Positions 1-35,745 of a DNA stretch of 64,000 nt are shown piece by piece. A program made the translations under genes and the position numbers. Where the stretch lies: NCBI GenBank assembly GCA_000827205.1, contig KN832560.1, positions 772,743 through 836,742 on the forward strand, given 5' to 3'. The DNA comes from Plicaturopsis crispa FD-325 SS-3. Taxonomy: Eukaryota > Basidiomycota > Agaricomycetes > Amylocorticiales > Amylocorticiaceae. Every line of letters begins with the position of its first letter. Position 1 is the stretch's first letter. The notes under the pieces are model-generated. The model saw nothing but the letters and a program-made list of their open reading frames with translations, was not told where the DNA came from and made no database searches.

Positions 1-812
1 GGGATACTCACGTTGGAGGTGACTCAGGAGCTCTCGCCGTGACGAGCCAGAGGCCCCGTCCCAGCGCGCGCGTCTCCGCACATCGGCAGGGTCGGAGCAC
101 ATTATGAGACTGTCTGGCTGTGAGCAGTCGCGCAAGATTAATTGTGGCGCACGCACCTCGACAATGCATGCAGTTTATCCGACTCGATACCCAACTGCGC
201 CAACTCATCGCGCAGAACGTGCAGCGCCGCCGTGGTCTTGCGCGCCTCCAGTAATTCTAGATACTTCTGCTGGCTAATCAGGAATTTCGCCTCCTGCACG
301 TAGAGTAAGTTAGTGCCGGGCGATAAGGAAGAAAGCACGCACGAGAAGAGCCTCCTCGTCGTCGATGGCGAGGTGCTGTAGCGCAGCCTCCGCACTCGCC
401 CATGCCCCGTGTATGATATAGTCCCGAAACTCCGACACCTCCATCGACTCGAGCGAATACCCCGATTCTGCCTCCAGTGTAGAGGCGGATTCCCTGGAAA
501 GTGTCAGAAGAGGCGAATAGATGCGGTAGAAAGCACGTACGTGTAGCCGACATCGCGGAGGGTCTGCAGCACGAGCCGCACGAATTCCTCCCGGTCCACC
601 GGGCAGTCGTCGTATAGCGTAGTACCCGGCAAGGACACTCGTGCCACGGCGGACGATTTGGCGGGCTTGCGGACGCCGTTACCGGTAGCAGATGCAGGCA
701 AGCCGTGTCCATTGCTGTGCCCGTTCGAGGGCCCTGGCGCGATAGACGAGGGGCCTGCTTCTGGGGCGGCATCGGGCGATGTGGAGTCTTGGTCTGATTC
801 GGGCATGCGCAT
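1..812 (-). CDS. GID7: GID7/WDR26-type CTLH ubiquitin-ligase subunit, N-terminal part (cut by window edge)
   Basis: This gene begins at the ATG at 812 and leaves the window at base 1, so the WD40 part is missing. After a low-complexity Ser/Pro leader comes a LisH-like segment (EFVRLVLQTLRDVGYTESAS) and then a CTLH region (EFRDYIIHGAWASAEAALQ, later KYLELLEARKTTAALHVLRD). An Arg-rich stretch with LIMCSDPADVRRRARWDG follows, typical of the WDR26/Gid7 family just before its WD40 propeller. Joining these pieces needs several short GT..AG introns, for example one that opens right after GYT. In this family the protein is a substrate-side or scaffold subunit of the GID/CTLH E3 ligase, which in yeast degrades gluconeogenic enzymes. 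The family call rests on the N-terminal half only; I infer the propeller lies beyond the edge. Confidence 0.85.
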
Positions 813-28773: not shown

Positions 28774-31236
28774 CTACTCGGACCCATCGTCCGGTTTCTG
28801 GCCCTTGGATTCCTCGTACTGATCCACATCGCTTTTCGCGAGGAGGCTAATGTGATTTATTGGATTAGCGTCGACACTCTTTCATGTCGTAGGAATGGAC
28901 TCACTTGGCCAAAGCGCCTGCGTCGACGGGGGGACTCTTCCCGTCTCCAACCATCACCATGATACCCTTACTTGGGACACCATCTACGACGATGTAGAGC
29001 CATCCGGGTCCTGGTGGATATATATTGCCGTTGGGGGGAGCCTTGACAGTCAGCGTATTGGCCGCGAGAGTCCAGTCCAGGTAAACGAGACGAGAATTGG
29101 CGTGGACAGCATGCGTTACGTAGCCAAGGTCCATAAGAGCAACTACATATACAGGGTCAGTCAGCTTGAATCTATCATGATAGGATCTCAGTGACCTTTG
29201 ATTTCGGGTGATTTCTGTGTAGCAGAAGGTAGCTTCACCGCGACCTGGACGGATTGCCCAAACGGAAGGTTGGTTGACGATCCGCTGAGCGAGGCGACGG
29301 GCCTATCCATCTTCATGTACGGTGGTGCAAACCATTCGACGCGATATTCAGTTCCGTACTTAACCTCGCTCCTGTCCAGGTTCGGGTTGCTTCCAGCGAC
29401 CATGATGTCTCCATTCGGCGTCAACGTCGCGACGGAGTGATACAGACGGGGAATCTGACTTGTCGGCAGGCCTTTGGAGGAGAACCGTTGACCAGCGGGG
29501 GCGATGGGATTATACAAGACTGGAGTGAGGACAGGGTTGTCGGCATTGGACGCGCCAACCTGGCCAATGACGTTTCCGTACCCAGAAATGCCCGAGCCGG
29601 CTCCGTTGACGATCAAGATTTCGCCAGTAGGTAGGAGCACTGCGTCTGGCATGAGTCGAGCCTGGGGCATTTGCTCGACCTGCCAGCCGGCAGCGATACC
29701 AGCGGCGTCCAGGACCATACGGGAGCATTGAGCAGATGCAGGGTCCTGCGAGTTGATCTGGTAGCCAGCCTTCTTGTCGTCTATAGTAGATCCACCGCAT
29801 AACAGGACTTCAGGCTTGTAGCCGTTGCTGGACGAGAGCGGGAGAAGGAGTCCGGTCCCGGTCATGGGATATGTGACTCTGACACCATTCGGGATCTTCG
29901 GAAGACGTTGCTCGGTGTTGCTCTGCCAGTCGTAAATCATGGCATCTTGATTGGCGGCCATGAACACCCGGCCATCGGGAAGTGAGAATACGATAGGAAA
30001 CAAGTTTGAGTTCAGCGTGTCGACGAGAAATGGAAGGTTGGCAGCCAGGCCGTTTGATCCATGCACATTCTTCGGAGGGTAGTACTCGACAGTGGGGTTG
30101 TTCACGGTAGCATTGTTGATCCAACCGCCCTTTTTGGAGCCTCCAACGACCATCGCACTGCCGTCGGAGATGCGGAGGACAGTGTTGTACCAGCGCGGAC
30201 TAGCCATACGAATCCGAGCGTGATTTTCGTACATATCGCATCCTTTCGCTGAGTCCGACGTGCAGGGCTCGAAGATTCGAACAGCCTGTAGTCCATCGAG
30301 GTCACCGAAATCAGCTGACGATGTCCGACCGTCCACGATGGGATTCCCGCCGACGTTGATCAGGGTCCCATTTCCGAGGAAAGTACCGCCAGCGCAGAAC
30401 GAGTTGGACTGCATCGTCAGAGGTTGTACAGCGTCCGTGTCGAGGTTGTATAGGGCTCCCCACGCGGGGTGTCCGTCTATCGTAAGGGGATTATGCTCTA
30501 CTTTATCGAGGATGATAGCGTGCGTAGGGGAGATGATTGCCAGCTGCATCGCGTGTACACCCGTAGTGCCTCTCTGTGTGAGGGTCCATTGAGGGGCCGA
30601 GGGAGGGGACGCAGCGAGGTCGGGTTGTGCGACTAGGTCCAGTGAATGCTGAGCAACAGCGTCGGACTGCGCCGGTGCAGGTCCCGCGGCGGCTTGCGAA
30701 TCGACACCTTTCGTGACGACAAACGCGTCGACAGCGAGGAGTGTACCCTTTGTTGACCCGGGTCTCTTTCCTGTATTGATGATCTTGACGTTGTGTTTAG
30801 CAAAAGGCAAGTCGTATTTCCAAAAGACGCGTTGCTGCTTCCTGTCGATTTCACTCCACGCATCCACCTCTTCTGCCAGTCGGCCATCGATATATACCTG
30901 CGATACACCGTGCGTCCTCCCAGTGTTTCCGAACCATTCGAAACCGGTCCCGGTGAACGTGAATGATACAGATGCGTTGGCGCGGGAGGTCCAACGGAGC
31001 GATTTTTCGACGTATGCCTGGGAGTAAGAGTCCACCCATTTGCCAGAGTACTGCAGCAGAGGTGAGGCGGAGTCATATCCTTTGGCTCCGAGGGGGACGT
31101 AGTAAGGTGTAAAGACGGCGGGTGTCGTGGATCCGGGAAGAGTGTGTCCGTTCCAAGCTGTCTCCGCAGCTGCAACTGCGCCGTGAGCGAATAGGGCCGA
31201 ACATGCAAGCAAAGAGCGAAGGATCATCGAGACCAT
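28774..31236 (-). CDS. Glyoxal oxidase-like copper-radical oxidase with extra N-terminal domain
   Basis: The ATG at 31236 gives a signal peptide (MVSMILRSLLACSALFAHGA). Residues about 45-170 form a separate beta-rich domain (YSGKWVDSYSQAYVEKSLRW, then ASVSFTFTGTGFEWFGNTGR). The oxidase follows. SNSFCAGGTF supplies the Cys and SPRWYNTVLR the Tyr of the Tyr-Cys cofactor. PRLYHSVATL supplies the axial Tyr and a His, and in the next exon GYVTHAVHANSR supplies the last His. The DUF1929-type end runs to exon 3 (DQYEESKGQKPDDGSE, stop at 28774). Introns at about 29135-29200 and 28850-28900 join in frame. Family members oxidise simple aldehydes to acids and release H2O2 for peroxidases outside the cell. 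The substrate is unknown here. Confidence 0.9.
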
Positions 31237-31548
31237 CAGGAAACGATGAAAGCGACGGAAAAAAGAGCGGCGGGTGGTCGAAGAAATAAAATAAAGAAAG
31301 CAGAATAAGAGATGCAACCGCAGCGGAGGCGCGAGTCTGCGCGAGTTCCAACACGCGAAGAGCCACGTGGGCGTCGACTCTAACTCACGTCGCTCGACAA
31401 TCTGTGGCGCAAATATTGGGCAACTCGATTTTCAGGTTTGGGACCACCAGTATCGCGCGTAGGTTGCTAGTTTACATTAAATTGTAAGTAATCAGAGACA
31501 TTATGAACACACAGGGAATGATATTGAAGCAAACGAACTGGGAGAGCA
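31237..31548. other. Intergenic, 312 bp
   Basis: This lies between the oxidase start and the 3' end of ADE4, both on the minus strand. It holds the oxidase promoter; nothing specific stands out. Confidence 0.45.
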
Positions 31549-33617
31549 TCAGCTTGTGTTCCAGCTGTTGTGCAGTCCGACCGTGTCATCGCCATTCGTC
31601 GGGCCACTAGACGCAACAACATTCTCCCGCTCTTGTGTAGTGTTCGCGAGTGCCCCACCACCTTTACCTTCACTGGCACCTATATCGCCAAGAGTCGGTT
31701 TGTCCTTGACATTGTCGGCGCGCAGTTTCTCCAGTCTGTCCAGGTATTGTTCGTCCACACCGCCAGTAACATATTCGCCAGTGAAGACCGAGCAGTCGAA
31801 CGTCTTGATCTTGGGGTTGAACTGTTGAACGGACGCTATAAGATCAGGTAGTGTTTGGAAGATGACAAGGTCGGCGCCGATCGCTTCCGCGATGGATTCA
31901 GTCGTGCGGTCGTTCGCGACGAGCTCAAACCGGGAAGGCATGTCGATGCCGTATACATTCGAATACCTGACCAAGCAGTGAGAATGTAGAAGGGGCAAGC
32001 AATAGTCTTTACGCACCGGATAGGAGGTGCACAGCTAGCGATGATAACTTTCTTGGCACCCACGTCCTTGGCCATCTGGATCATCTCCTTTGATGTTGTG
32101 CCCCGCACAATAGAATCTTGAAACGCATTATCAGTGCTGGTTCTACGAATATGTATTGGAGGGTACTCTGACCGTCGACCAAAAGGACGTTCTTGCCAAC
32201 AAATTCTAGAGCCATCGCGTTGAGTTTTCGCCTGACGTTCTTCGTTCTACCGAAGGCGAAGTCCATAAGTATTGTATCCTGTGCCTCTATGAGGAATATA
32301 CGCACCTCATCTCTTGGCCAGGCATGATAAATGTGCGGCCAACGTAACGGTTCTTAACAAACCCTTCGCGGTACGGAAGACCAAGCTTCTGCGCGAGGTT
32401 CAACGCCGCAACGCGCGAGGTGTCCGGGACCTCAAAGCAAGTGTAAGCCCTGGAAATGCTTTCGTGTAGAGTGTACGTACTGGGATCACAACATCCACCG
32501 TCAAGTTGTTCTCATCGAGGACCCTCTTGACCTCGTCGGCAAGAGCGTCGCCCATCGCCATTCGGCTTCGGTAAACACTGATCCCATCTAGAACAGAGTC
32601 TGGTCGTGCAAAGTACACGTATTCAAAGATATCCGGTGCAAAGGTATTGGGGGGTGCAACGTTGCGGCGGGTTACACCGGAGCGAGTGATAATCACTGCT
32701 TCACCTGATGACGAAAACATTGTCAGAGTTATAACACGTCGGTTTTAGATTTCACTCACCAGCATTGACGTCTTCCCATTCACTATAACCGTGAGCGTCG
32801 GCGACGACGCTCTCACTGGCAAACAAATAATCTTTGCCGGTTCCAGATTTTCGAACGGCCATGCCGACCGGCCGAATTCCATTGGGGTCGCGGAATGCGA
32901 TGATACCAAAGCCAGCGATCATCGCGACACACGCGTACGCGCCTATGCACTGTTTCATGAGCCCCCCAATCGCGGTGAAGATATCCTCCTCATTGATTCG
33001 GAATTTCCCAGTTTGCTGGAGATTGTTCGCGAAGATGTTGAGCAGCAGTTCCGAGTCTGACGACGTGTTTATGTGCCGGTGGGCAGTAGCATCCATGAAT
33101 CGCAGTAGTTCATCCGTGTTTATGAGATTTCCGTTCTGTGGGGCGCTATGAGTTTACGCAAACAGTCGCCCACAGGACTGTACGAGCACGTACGTGGCCA
33201 AAAACAATTCCATAGGGCGAGTTTACATAGAATGGTTGAGCTTCCGCGTGGTTGGAGCTTCCCGCCGTAGGATAGCGCACTAAAGGGGACTTAGCTGGTG
33301 GGCAGCACCTAGGTTAGGAAGCGCACGCACCGTGTCCAATACCCATCCCGCCGATCAGTCTACCAATAGAGTGGTTGTCGAAGACATCGCGGACCATGCC
33401 GTTTGCCTTGCATTGGTATAATCGTCCTTTCGGTCCGCAGGTGACGATCCCACACGCATCCTGGCCTCTATGTTGTAGCAGAGATAGACCCTCGCTGATC
33501 TCCGCTGCCACATCTACATTCGGGTCGTGTAACAAGACACCCATAATTCCGCACACTAATTATGTGACCTCCGTGAGCGACTGGACAATGAACGACAGAC
33601 ATCTCGGAGAACTCACT
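31549..33617 (-). CDS. ADE4: Amidophosphoribosyltransferase (first committed step of purine synthesis)
   Basis: The mature protein starts [20 protein letters not shown], with the Cys next to the initiator Met that becomes the Ntn nucleophile of the glutaminase domain. [12 protein letters not shown] follows, and [20 protein letters not shown] and [17 protein letters not shown] are in later exons. The phosphoribosyltransferase part includes [19 protein letters not shown] and [17 protein letters not shown]. The last exon ends in a low-complexity tail (stop at 31549). The enzyme makes phosphoribosylamine from PRPP and glutamine and is feedback-inhibited by purine nucleotides. No ATG precedes TGCGGA in genomic DNA: an in-frame TAA lies 6 nt upstream. 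A 61-nt GTGAGT..ATTAG intron (33556-33616) places an A (33617) before TG, so the start codon appears to be split by splicing. Confidence 0.93.
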
Positions 33618-34236
33618 GATTGAAAGCGATAAGAAAGCTAATAATGATAAGATGAACGTGGTGTAGGACGATTCCTGGGACTATGCTGCTATGTCGAACG
33701 TGTAGGGGGAGGGGGAGAAGCAGGAGACTGCATTCCACGAATCCACTGCCAGTGGTAGGATAAATTTTCGGAGTCCATCCGATCGAAAAATCGATCGCGT
33801 CTGTGGCACGTTCGCGATTCATCCGAGTCAAGTCCGAGAACCCGAAATCGCGTAGATCAGTTATCTCTCTCTGATTTTACTCTCATCGCAGCTTGCAACG
33901 GACTGTGAACATATCATGTTCGAACGATAGAAATGGATACAGTAAGATGCGGTTGAACGCGGTGTATTCTTCTACTACTTTTGAAAACAGCGAAGACAAG
34001 GCAGCCATATAGCAGGCGGCTATTCTACAGATCCTAGGAGAGTAGGTATATGCTAGGTTAAATGTACGATGGATGTGAGCGGTTAGGTGTGCGAGTTAGG
34101 TGGGGGCGAGATAGGCGGGACGTCGAGATGTACAGGGGAGAGCCGATGAGGGCAATGTCAAGACGGATAGATGGGGGGAAGGATGAACTTCCGATGCAGT
34201 GTAAAAAGAACGAGGAAAACGAAAGAACAAGTCCGC
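33618..34236. other. Intergenic, 619 bp
   Basis: This lies upstream of ADE4 and downstream of the SAM synthetase gene. It must contain the ADE4 promoter and 5' UTR. No repeats or reading frames of note. Confidence 0.5.
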
Positions 34237-35745
34237 TCAGAGCTTGAGCTGCTTGGGCTTCTCCCAGGTGTAAGAAGGGTTACCTGTCAGGATCATGCTT
34301 AGTATGTGCGATTGAAGAAGAACAACAGAGGTGCACTAACCGAAGTGGCCGTAAGAAGCCGTCTTCAGGTAGATAGGCTTCTGGAGGTCAAGCTGGCGAA
34401 CTGTGATACATCAACAGTCAGGATGCGGAAAAAAGAGCGAAGGCAATCAGGGAACGAACCGATAACACCAGGCCTCAAGTCCCAGTTGTTGCGGATGATG
34501 GCAACGAGCTCCTCGTCAGTCTTCTTCGAGGTGCCGTACGAGTCGACGTAGATAGACAGAGGCTCAGCTACACCGATGGCATACGAGAGCTGAACAAGTA
34601 CTCGTCGGGCAAGGCCGGCGGCAACGAGAGACTTGGCTAGAAGGAAGATTTGAGGATGCAGAAACATACTGTATGGGAAGGAAACTGACCGATCCAACGA
34701 GCAGTGTACGCAGCAGAGCGGTCAACCTTGGAGAAGTCCTTTCCGGAGAAGGCACCTCCACCGTGCGCACCCCAGCCACCGTAGGTGTCGACAATAATTT
34801 TACGACCAGTCAGACCAGCATCACCCTGGGGTCCACCAATGACGAAACGACCAGAGGGTTGAATCTGGATCGGATATTAGAATGGAAGGATATGTACGAT
34901 AGCGGCAGTACGCACGTGGTAGATAGTGCGCTCATCCAAGAGGTTGGCGGGGATGACCTGCTTGACCACCTTCTCGATGAGCTCCTTGCGGAGGTCCTCA
35001 GTCGAGATAGAATCCGCGTGCTGCGTCGAGATAACGACGGTGTCAACACGGAGGGGAATGGTAGCACCTCCCTCCTTCTTGTACTCGACAGTGACCTGGG
35101 TCTTCGAGTCGGGACGGAGCCAGGCAAGAGCACCACTGCGGCGCGCAACAGCCATCGCGGCGTTAAGCTTGTGGGCAAGGACGATGGTCAAGGGCATGAG
35201 CTCCTCGGTCTCGTCGGTGGCATACCCAAACATGATACCCTGGTCACCGGCACCGTGGTCCTCGAGCGAGCCGTGGTCCAAGCCCTGGGCAATATCCGGG
35301 GACTGCTGCTCAATGGCCACGAGGATGTTGCAAGTCTTGTAGTCGAAGCCCTTTTCGGAATCGTCGTAACCGATCTGCTTAATCGTGTTACGGATGACCT
35401 TCTGGTAATCGATGGATGCCTTGGTGGTGATCTCTCCGAAAACCATGATCATGCCCGTCTTAGTGGCAGTCTCGCAAGCAACCTTGGAGCCCGGGTCCTG
35501 GGCAAGGCATGCATCGAGCTGAAGAAAAAATAGAAAAATCAGTTCATCGCGATCCCGCATACACAGAAAACACCATGGTGAACTCACGATAGCGTCAGAG
35601 ACCTGATCGCAAATTTTATCTGCGATCTCCTTCAGTCAATGGCCCCATTTACACGCTCATCGCACATACCAGGGTGTCCCTCGCCAACGGACTCGGACGT
35701 GAAAAGGAAGTGGCCGGGGGCAAGAGCGGCGTGAACGGTGGCCAT
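34237..35745 (-). CDS. S-adenosylmethionine synthetase
   Basis: The start at 35745 ([20 protein letters not shown]) is followed by [16 protein letters not shown], where an intron falls inside the Asp codon. The central exon carries [20 protein letters not shown], the family signature. Later come [20 protein letters not shown] and [11 protein letters not shown], the Gly-rich phosphate loop. The last two exons give [19 protein letters not shown] and a TGA at 34237. All three domains of the roughly 390-residue enzyme are present. It makes AdoMet from methionine and ATP in the cytosol and supplies all cellular methylations. A 286-codon frame on the + strand is its antisense shadow, a by-product of strong codon bias in a highly expressed gene. 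Confidence 0.95.

Follow-up and report, generated by a model that had tools for sequence, protein, structure and literature searches.

An intron that very probably splits the start codon of ADE4 in Plicaturopsis crispa

Introduction

How does the ADE4 gene of Plicaturopsis crispa provide a start codon for a protein that is expected to begin with methionine followed directly by its catalytic cysteine, if no ATG stands at this place in the genomic DNA? In the window analysed here, a stretch of 64,000 nucleotides from contig KN832560.1, the codons that precede the Cys codon are ACA TAA TTA GTG, and thus the GTG and the in-frame TAA leave no uninterrupted ATG able to start the protein at this Cys. 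The original prediction was that an intron of 61 nt cuts the start codon after its first base, that translation of the enzyme depends on its splicing, and that this could act as a switch for purine synthesis.

Re-reading of the sequence confirmed the predicted anatomy, namely the coordinates and the 61-nt length of the intron, the A/GTGAGT donor (here and below, a slash marks an exon–intron boundary or the position of the split), the CTCAC branch-like motif and the TTAG acceptor, as well as the genomic GTG-TGC with the in-frame TAA upstream (33562-33560). The start codon of ADE4 is very probably split by a real intron, a reading strongly supported by the spliced frame, the homologues, the splice scores and the chance counts described below, whereas the proposed switch found no support. 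The case matters because the chemistry of the protein, in which a catalytic Cys is expected after the Met, allows the start codon of ADE4 to be placed despite there being no ATG in the genomic DNA. A gene finder that demands a contiguous ATG would misplace the N-terminus of ADE4, probably to codon 5, and would thereby drop the catalytic residue.

Anatomy of the ADE4 start and gene model

On the minus strand of the window, the letters across the split read ...CTTTCAATCA/GTGAGTTCTCC...GCTCACGGAGGTCACATAATTAG/TGTGCGGAATTATGG, and the features of the region are collected in Table 1. When the join is computed by script, the A at 33617, the TG at 33555-33554 and the following TGC give ATG TGC GGA ATT ATG. 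At the required place the genome holds no start codon, and one would arise only by the joining of exons, which is what defines a start-codon-disrupting intron. The GTG found in the genomic DNA is to be expected, since any A/TG split with an AG acceptor leaves a GTG, and it needs no separate explanation.

Removal of the start-codon intron and of seven further GT-AG introns yields an ADE4/PurF protein of 542 residues, which begins with M-CGIMG and has no internal stop. Its coding sequence of 1,629 nt thus holds seven introns besides the one in the start codon. The spliced model passes the NCBIfam purF model TIGR01134, with 440.9 bits for a cut-off of 350, and most of the product can be aligned to PRPP amidotransferases of solved structure. 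The predicted catalytic Cys of ADE4 is aligned with the first Cys of these structures, several chains of which begin at the equivalent Cys, and the best match begins with Met-Cys. Across the 33.2-Mb genome, six of the seven purF matches are exons of this ADE4 and the seventh lies in a GFA1-like gene; no second ADE4 copy, with a possible intact start, was seen in this search.

Table 1. Features of the ADE4 locus, in positions of the window
Feature	Position	Strand	Remarks
A of the split ATG	33617..33617	-	last base of exon 1; rest of exon 1 is 5' leader
Intron cutting the start codon after base 1	33556..33616	-	61 nt, GT...AG; flanks join to ATG-TGC
5' splice site GTGAGT	33611..33616	-	score 8.58
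ORF of 44 residues from intronic ATG	33468..33602	-	only if the intron is retained; out of frame with ADE4
Branch-site-like GCTCACG	33572..33578	-	branch A at 33574, 18 nt before intron end
TAA in frame with CGIMG	33560..33562	-	intronic; closes the unspliced frame
3' splice site TAG	33556..33558	-	AT-rich bases before; acceptor score -0.86
Exon 2 of ADE4	33331..33555	-	TG TGC GGA ATT ATG...
Predicted N-terminal nucleophile Cys codon	33553-33551	-	in exon 2
Next in-frame ATG (codon 5)	33542..33544	-	a start here loses the Cys
Rest of ADE4	31549..33330	-	seven coding exons and seven GT-AG introns of 50-59 nt
Later exons of ADE4	33279-33194, 33135-32760, 32704-32481, 32430-32306, 32246-32173, 32116-32017, 31966-31549	-	

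A methionine is expected directly before the cysteine

That the Cys must directly follow the initiator Met, as had been argued for this locus, is too strong as a general rule, since some PRPP amidotransferases, such as those of Bacillus and animals, carry a propeptide that is cleaved. The three best solved matches of ADE4 are, however, presumably of the E. coli type, which lacks a propeptide. For the Met-Cys question, and solely for it, we used bacterial homologues, comprising the best 80 of 149 relatives found in one scan of genome contigs, all 80 being bacterial by title; one scan of viral contigs gave no relative. In every one of the 80 homologues a start codon is found immediately before the Cys codon (70 ATG and 10 GTG). 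Upstream of the Cys, a stop is reached before any further in-frame ATG in 77 of them, and the ATG comes first in the other three.

In this genome, an uninterrupted ATG TGC GG is present at all three of the other CGI-type starts that were examined, which makes ADE4 the odd one out. These are the start of the GFA1-like gene, that of an ASN1-like gene, and a third, putative one on contig C2, which lies ~2.2 kb from an asparagine-synthetase-like match and may belong to the same gene. A Met would thus be expected before the Cys of ADE4 as well, and this is exactly what the predicted splice would make. A loose pattern for CGI-type starts was uninformative and was dropped, giving 172 forward and 172 reverse matches, versus 133 and 126 for the control.

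Splice signals of the probable start-codon intron

In our view, it is highly likely that a short spliceosomal intron of the ordinary type, in a fungal genome rich in introns, lies by happenstance inside the start codon of ADE4, the gene for glutamine PRPP amidotransferase. Exon 1 would then be a non-coding leader that ends in the A of the ATG, and splicing would join this A to TG TGC, forming the start of M-CGIMG..., from which the Met would be removed to leave the catalytic Cys at the N-terminus. Most likely, splicing of this intron is routine, and RNA that keeps it would simply be unproductive.

The splice signals were scored with a donor, acceptor and branch-site model trained on 35 partly overlapping stretches of this genome, the window among them, which together hold 170,277 bases. 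Training began with the other seven introns of ADE4 and was extended, from sequence alone, to 250 putative introns, from which the candidate was left out. These introns were selected for minimum scores of 1 for the donor and 0 for the acceptor and for a length of 45-79 nt, so that percentiles for acceptor and length are biased; 35 of the 250 sit in mutually overlapping stretches, and a few may be double. An intron search by coding potential only was dropped, its 73 selected candidates having no clear splice consensus. Relative to the 250 putative introns, the candidate ranks at the 58th percentile for its donor and at the 45th for its branch site. The distance of the branch site from the intron end, 18 nt for a median of 19 in the trained set, is typical, and the intron length is close to the median of 59.5 nt, within the 45-79 nt that the model allowed.

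Other features count against an ordinary intron. None of the 250 trained introns, themselves chosen for a score of 0 or more, has an acceptor score as low as that of the candidate. When introns were chosen regardless of this score, with overlaps removed, the candidate ranks second from the bottom among 79, itself included. The bases ATAAT stand before the acceptor TAG, and two pyrimidines are present at positions -8 to -4, which is nothing exceptional; in the overlapping set of 83 introns, 27 have two pyrimidines there and three have one. The low score is thus attributable to the A bases, rather than to too few pyrimidines alone. The donor, originally described as perfect, deserves this description on the intron side (GTGAGT), but the exonic A before it is a minority base here, with a frequency of 0.17 versus 0.51 for G, and this also counts against our preferred reading. 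So does the length, as the intron is slightly longer than the seven others of ADE4 (61 versus 50-59 nt).

The arrangement is more than chance

The A/TG split arrangement is more than chance. In all the chance counts, the thresholds were the candidate's own donor and branch scores. AG sites were counted on both strands of 164,551 bases, with overlapping stretches removed. A donor and a branch site at least as good as those of the candidate are found 45-80 nt upstream of 146 of the 19,428 AG sites, 16 of which have an A before the donor. When only AG/TG sites are considered, ten of 1,104 have a donor and branch site as good, and a single one also has the A before the donor; its letters identify this site as the candidate itself. 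The same count with overlaps kept (170,277 bases) gives one of 1,142 AG/TG sites. When the upstream 118 nt were shuffled 20,000 times with dinucleotides preserved, these scores were reached in 13 cases, six of them with an A before the donor.

Over the whole 33.2-Mb genome, a strict pattern of the arrangement has two matches, versus none for the reversed pattern. The match other than ADE4, at C11:631267-631330, has no long coding frame after the join and was taken as chance.

Comparison with known start-codon introns

Introns that disrupt the start codon, i.e., those in phase 1 or 2 of codon 1, are relatively rare according to Nielsen and Wernersson 2006 (PMC1626468). The ADE4 intron is alike in being in phase 1 of codon 1, although the passages on such introns name no fungal ADE4 case, and the ADE4 case is drawn from genomic DNA alone. 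The same source describes start codon introns of phase 0, located immediately after the ATG, which resemble the ADE4 intron in parting the leader from the coding body. Those introns leave the ATG whole, whereas the ATG of ADE4 would exist only after splicing.

For Cryptococcus neoformans, also a fungus with short and dense introns, PMC3990503 gives an intron density of 3.35 per kb of coding sequence and a smallest exon size of 1 bp. The coding part of ADE4 exon 1 is likewise a single base, but the exon is longer overall because of its leader, and the passages on the 1-bp exons do not state that these belong to start codons. Among the matches listed from the open-licence literature, no fungal gene with an intron splitting its start codon was found, which is no proof of absence. 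A phrase on a disrupted start codon in PMC10182648 concerns, in the passage where it occurs, a mutation and not an intron.

By our own arithmetic, blind placement of introns at the density of this gene (7 introns in 1,629 nt), with two breakable bonds in the start codon, would give a split start in ~0.7-0.9% of genes. Dozens of split starts per genome are thus conceivable, or fewer if such introns are selected against. An intron in the start codon, as in ADE4, is unusually placed, yet arrangements of this kind are known.

Alternative explanations

A reading that is compatible with a real splice, but which we consider rather unlikely, is that the intron has been kept near the 5' end because an intron in this region increases the output of mRNA or protein, irrespective of its precise position. 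In Coprinopsis cinerea, the ble marker behind the gpdII promoter needed an intron after codon 2, which was essential for its expression, while an intron was not crucial for hph, both according to PMC7552465. In ADE4 itself seven more introns lie downstream, and thus no special need for the one in the start codon is evident.

Regulation through this intron is a different matter from its splicing. If the intron is kept, the ATG at 33602 opens an ORF of 44 residues in another frame than that of ADE4, which runs across the next ATG of the ADE4 frame, at codon 5, and a product begun at codon 5 would be without the catalytic Cys. The full-length enzyme would thus require splicing, and the dependence of its translation on splicing that was originally predicted follows from the anatomy, as codon 5 lies beyond the catalytic Cys. 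Controlled retention of the intron, e.g., in response to purine supply or growth stage, could on this basis set the output of ADE4, and if splicing were regulated in this way, purine synthesis in a fungus could be turned on and off simply at this point. The form of retained RNA, with an out-of-frame ORF overlapping codon 5, would suit such control, and regulation dependent on intron retention has been reported in the basidiomycete Cryptococcus neoformans (PMC5006051); the weak acceptor is the only hint in favour. We nevertheless regard a regulated switch as improbable. The position in the start codon alone is no evidence for control, since many introns in coding regions would likewise block expression if retained. 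Furthermore, no Rfam match up to E = 1 was found in 33300-34300, and no unusual fold in 33540-33680, where 85 of 200 shuffled sequences give an equal or better fold (z -0.08). With no Rfam match and a fold no better than shuffles, the proposed switch for purine synthesis finds no support. It is likewise improbable that splicing is rate-limiting owing to the weak acceptor and that the first committed purine step is thereby tuned, through intron retention, to purine status or growth stage, while the intronic ATG serves as a decoy against production of a Cys-less enzyme from codon 5. The ordinary intron that we favour is probably unregulated.

It is very unlikely that an upstream exon, spliced to 33555, supplies its own ATG together with a short leader or propeptide before the Cys. 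The cleaved propeptides of some PRPP amidotransferases offer a precedent, and a further in-frame ATG precedes the stop in three of the 80 bacterial homologues, but the stop comes first in the other 77. The candidate donors also argue against such an exon: of the 13 GTs that were found between 31 and 250 nt before the intron end, that at 33616 scores 8.58, but the other 12 reach at most 3.83. With the donor at 33616, the spliced frame has 21 codons without an ATG between the last upstream stop and the split ATG. A spliced leader starting at 33725 or later would hold no ATG before the split one, and a leader extending to 33760 would add a uORF of 14 residues.

The least probable reading, to which we give hardly any weight, is that no splice occurs and translation starts from the genomic GTG or from the ATG of codon 5, because, even with GTG directly before the Cys in 10 of the 80 bacterial homologues, GTG starts are rare in eukaryotes, this GTG is expected from any A/TG split with an AG acceptor, in unspliced RNA these sites would be preceded by the ATG at 33602, and initiation at codon 5 leaves out the catalytic Cys.

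Leader, neighbouring genes and the GFA1-like gene

The end of the leader next to the split ATG (33618-33680, minus strand) is open for 21 codons in the ADE4 frame, without ATG, and its translation is hydrophobic (...TTFILSLLAFLSLSI-MCG), which is most likely due to chance.

Directly upstream of ADE4 and on the same strand is a gene for S-adenosylmethionine synthetase, with the N-terminal and central domains at 34877-35635 (minus strand) and continuing to ~34237. Judged by eye, this gene ends with a stop codon at 34239-34237, which leaves ~620 nt to the start of ADE4. Just downstream of ADE4 lies a glyoxal-oxidase-type gene (29188-31431, minus strand), which lies in an open frame of 747 codons, counted from stop to stop, and matches Glyoxal_oxid_N with 122.9 bits.

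In the GFA1-like gene (contig C9; L130 ~265-625, minus strand), the exon encoding MCGIFSYC is short and is followed, by eye, by a gap of ~300 nt before the next coding stretch, suggesting that this gene has an unusually long first intron.
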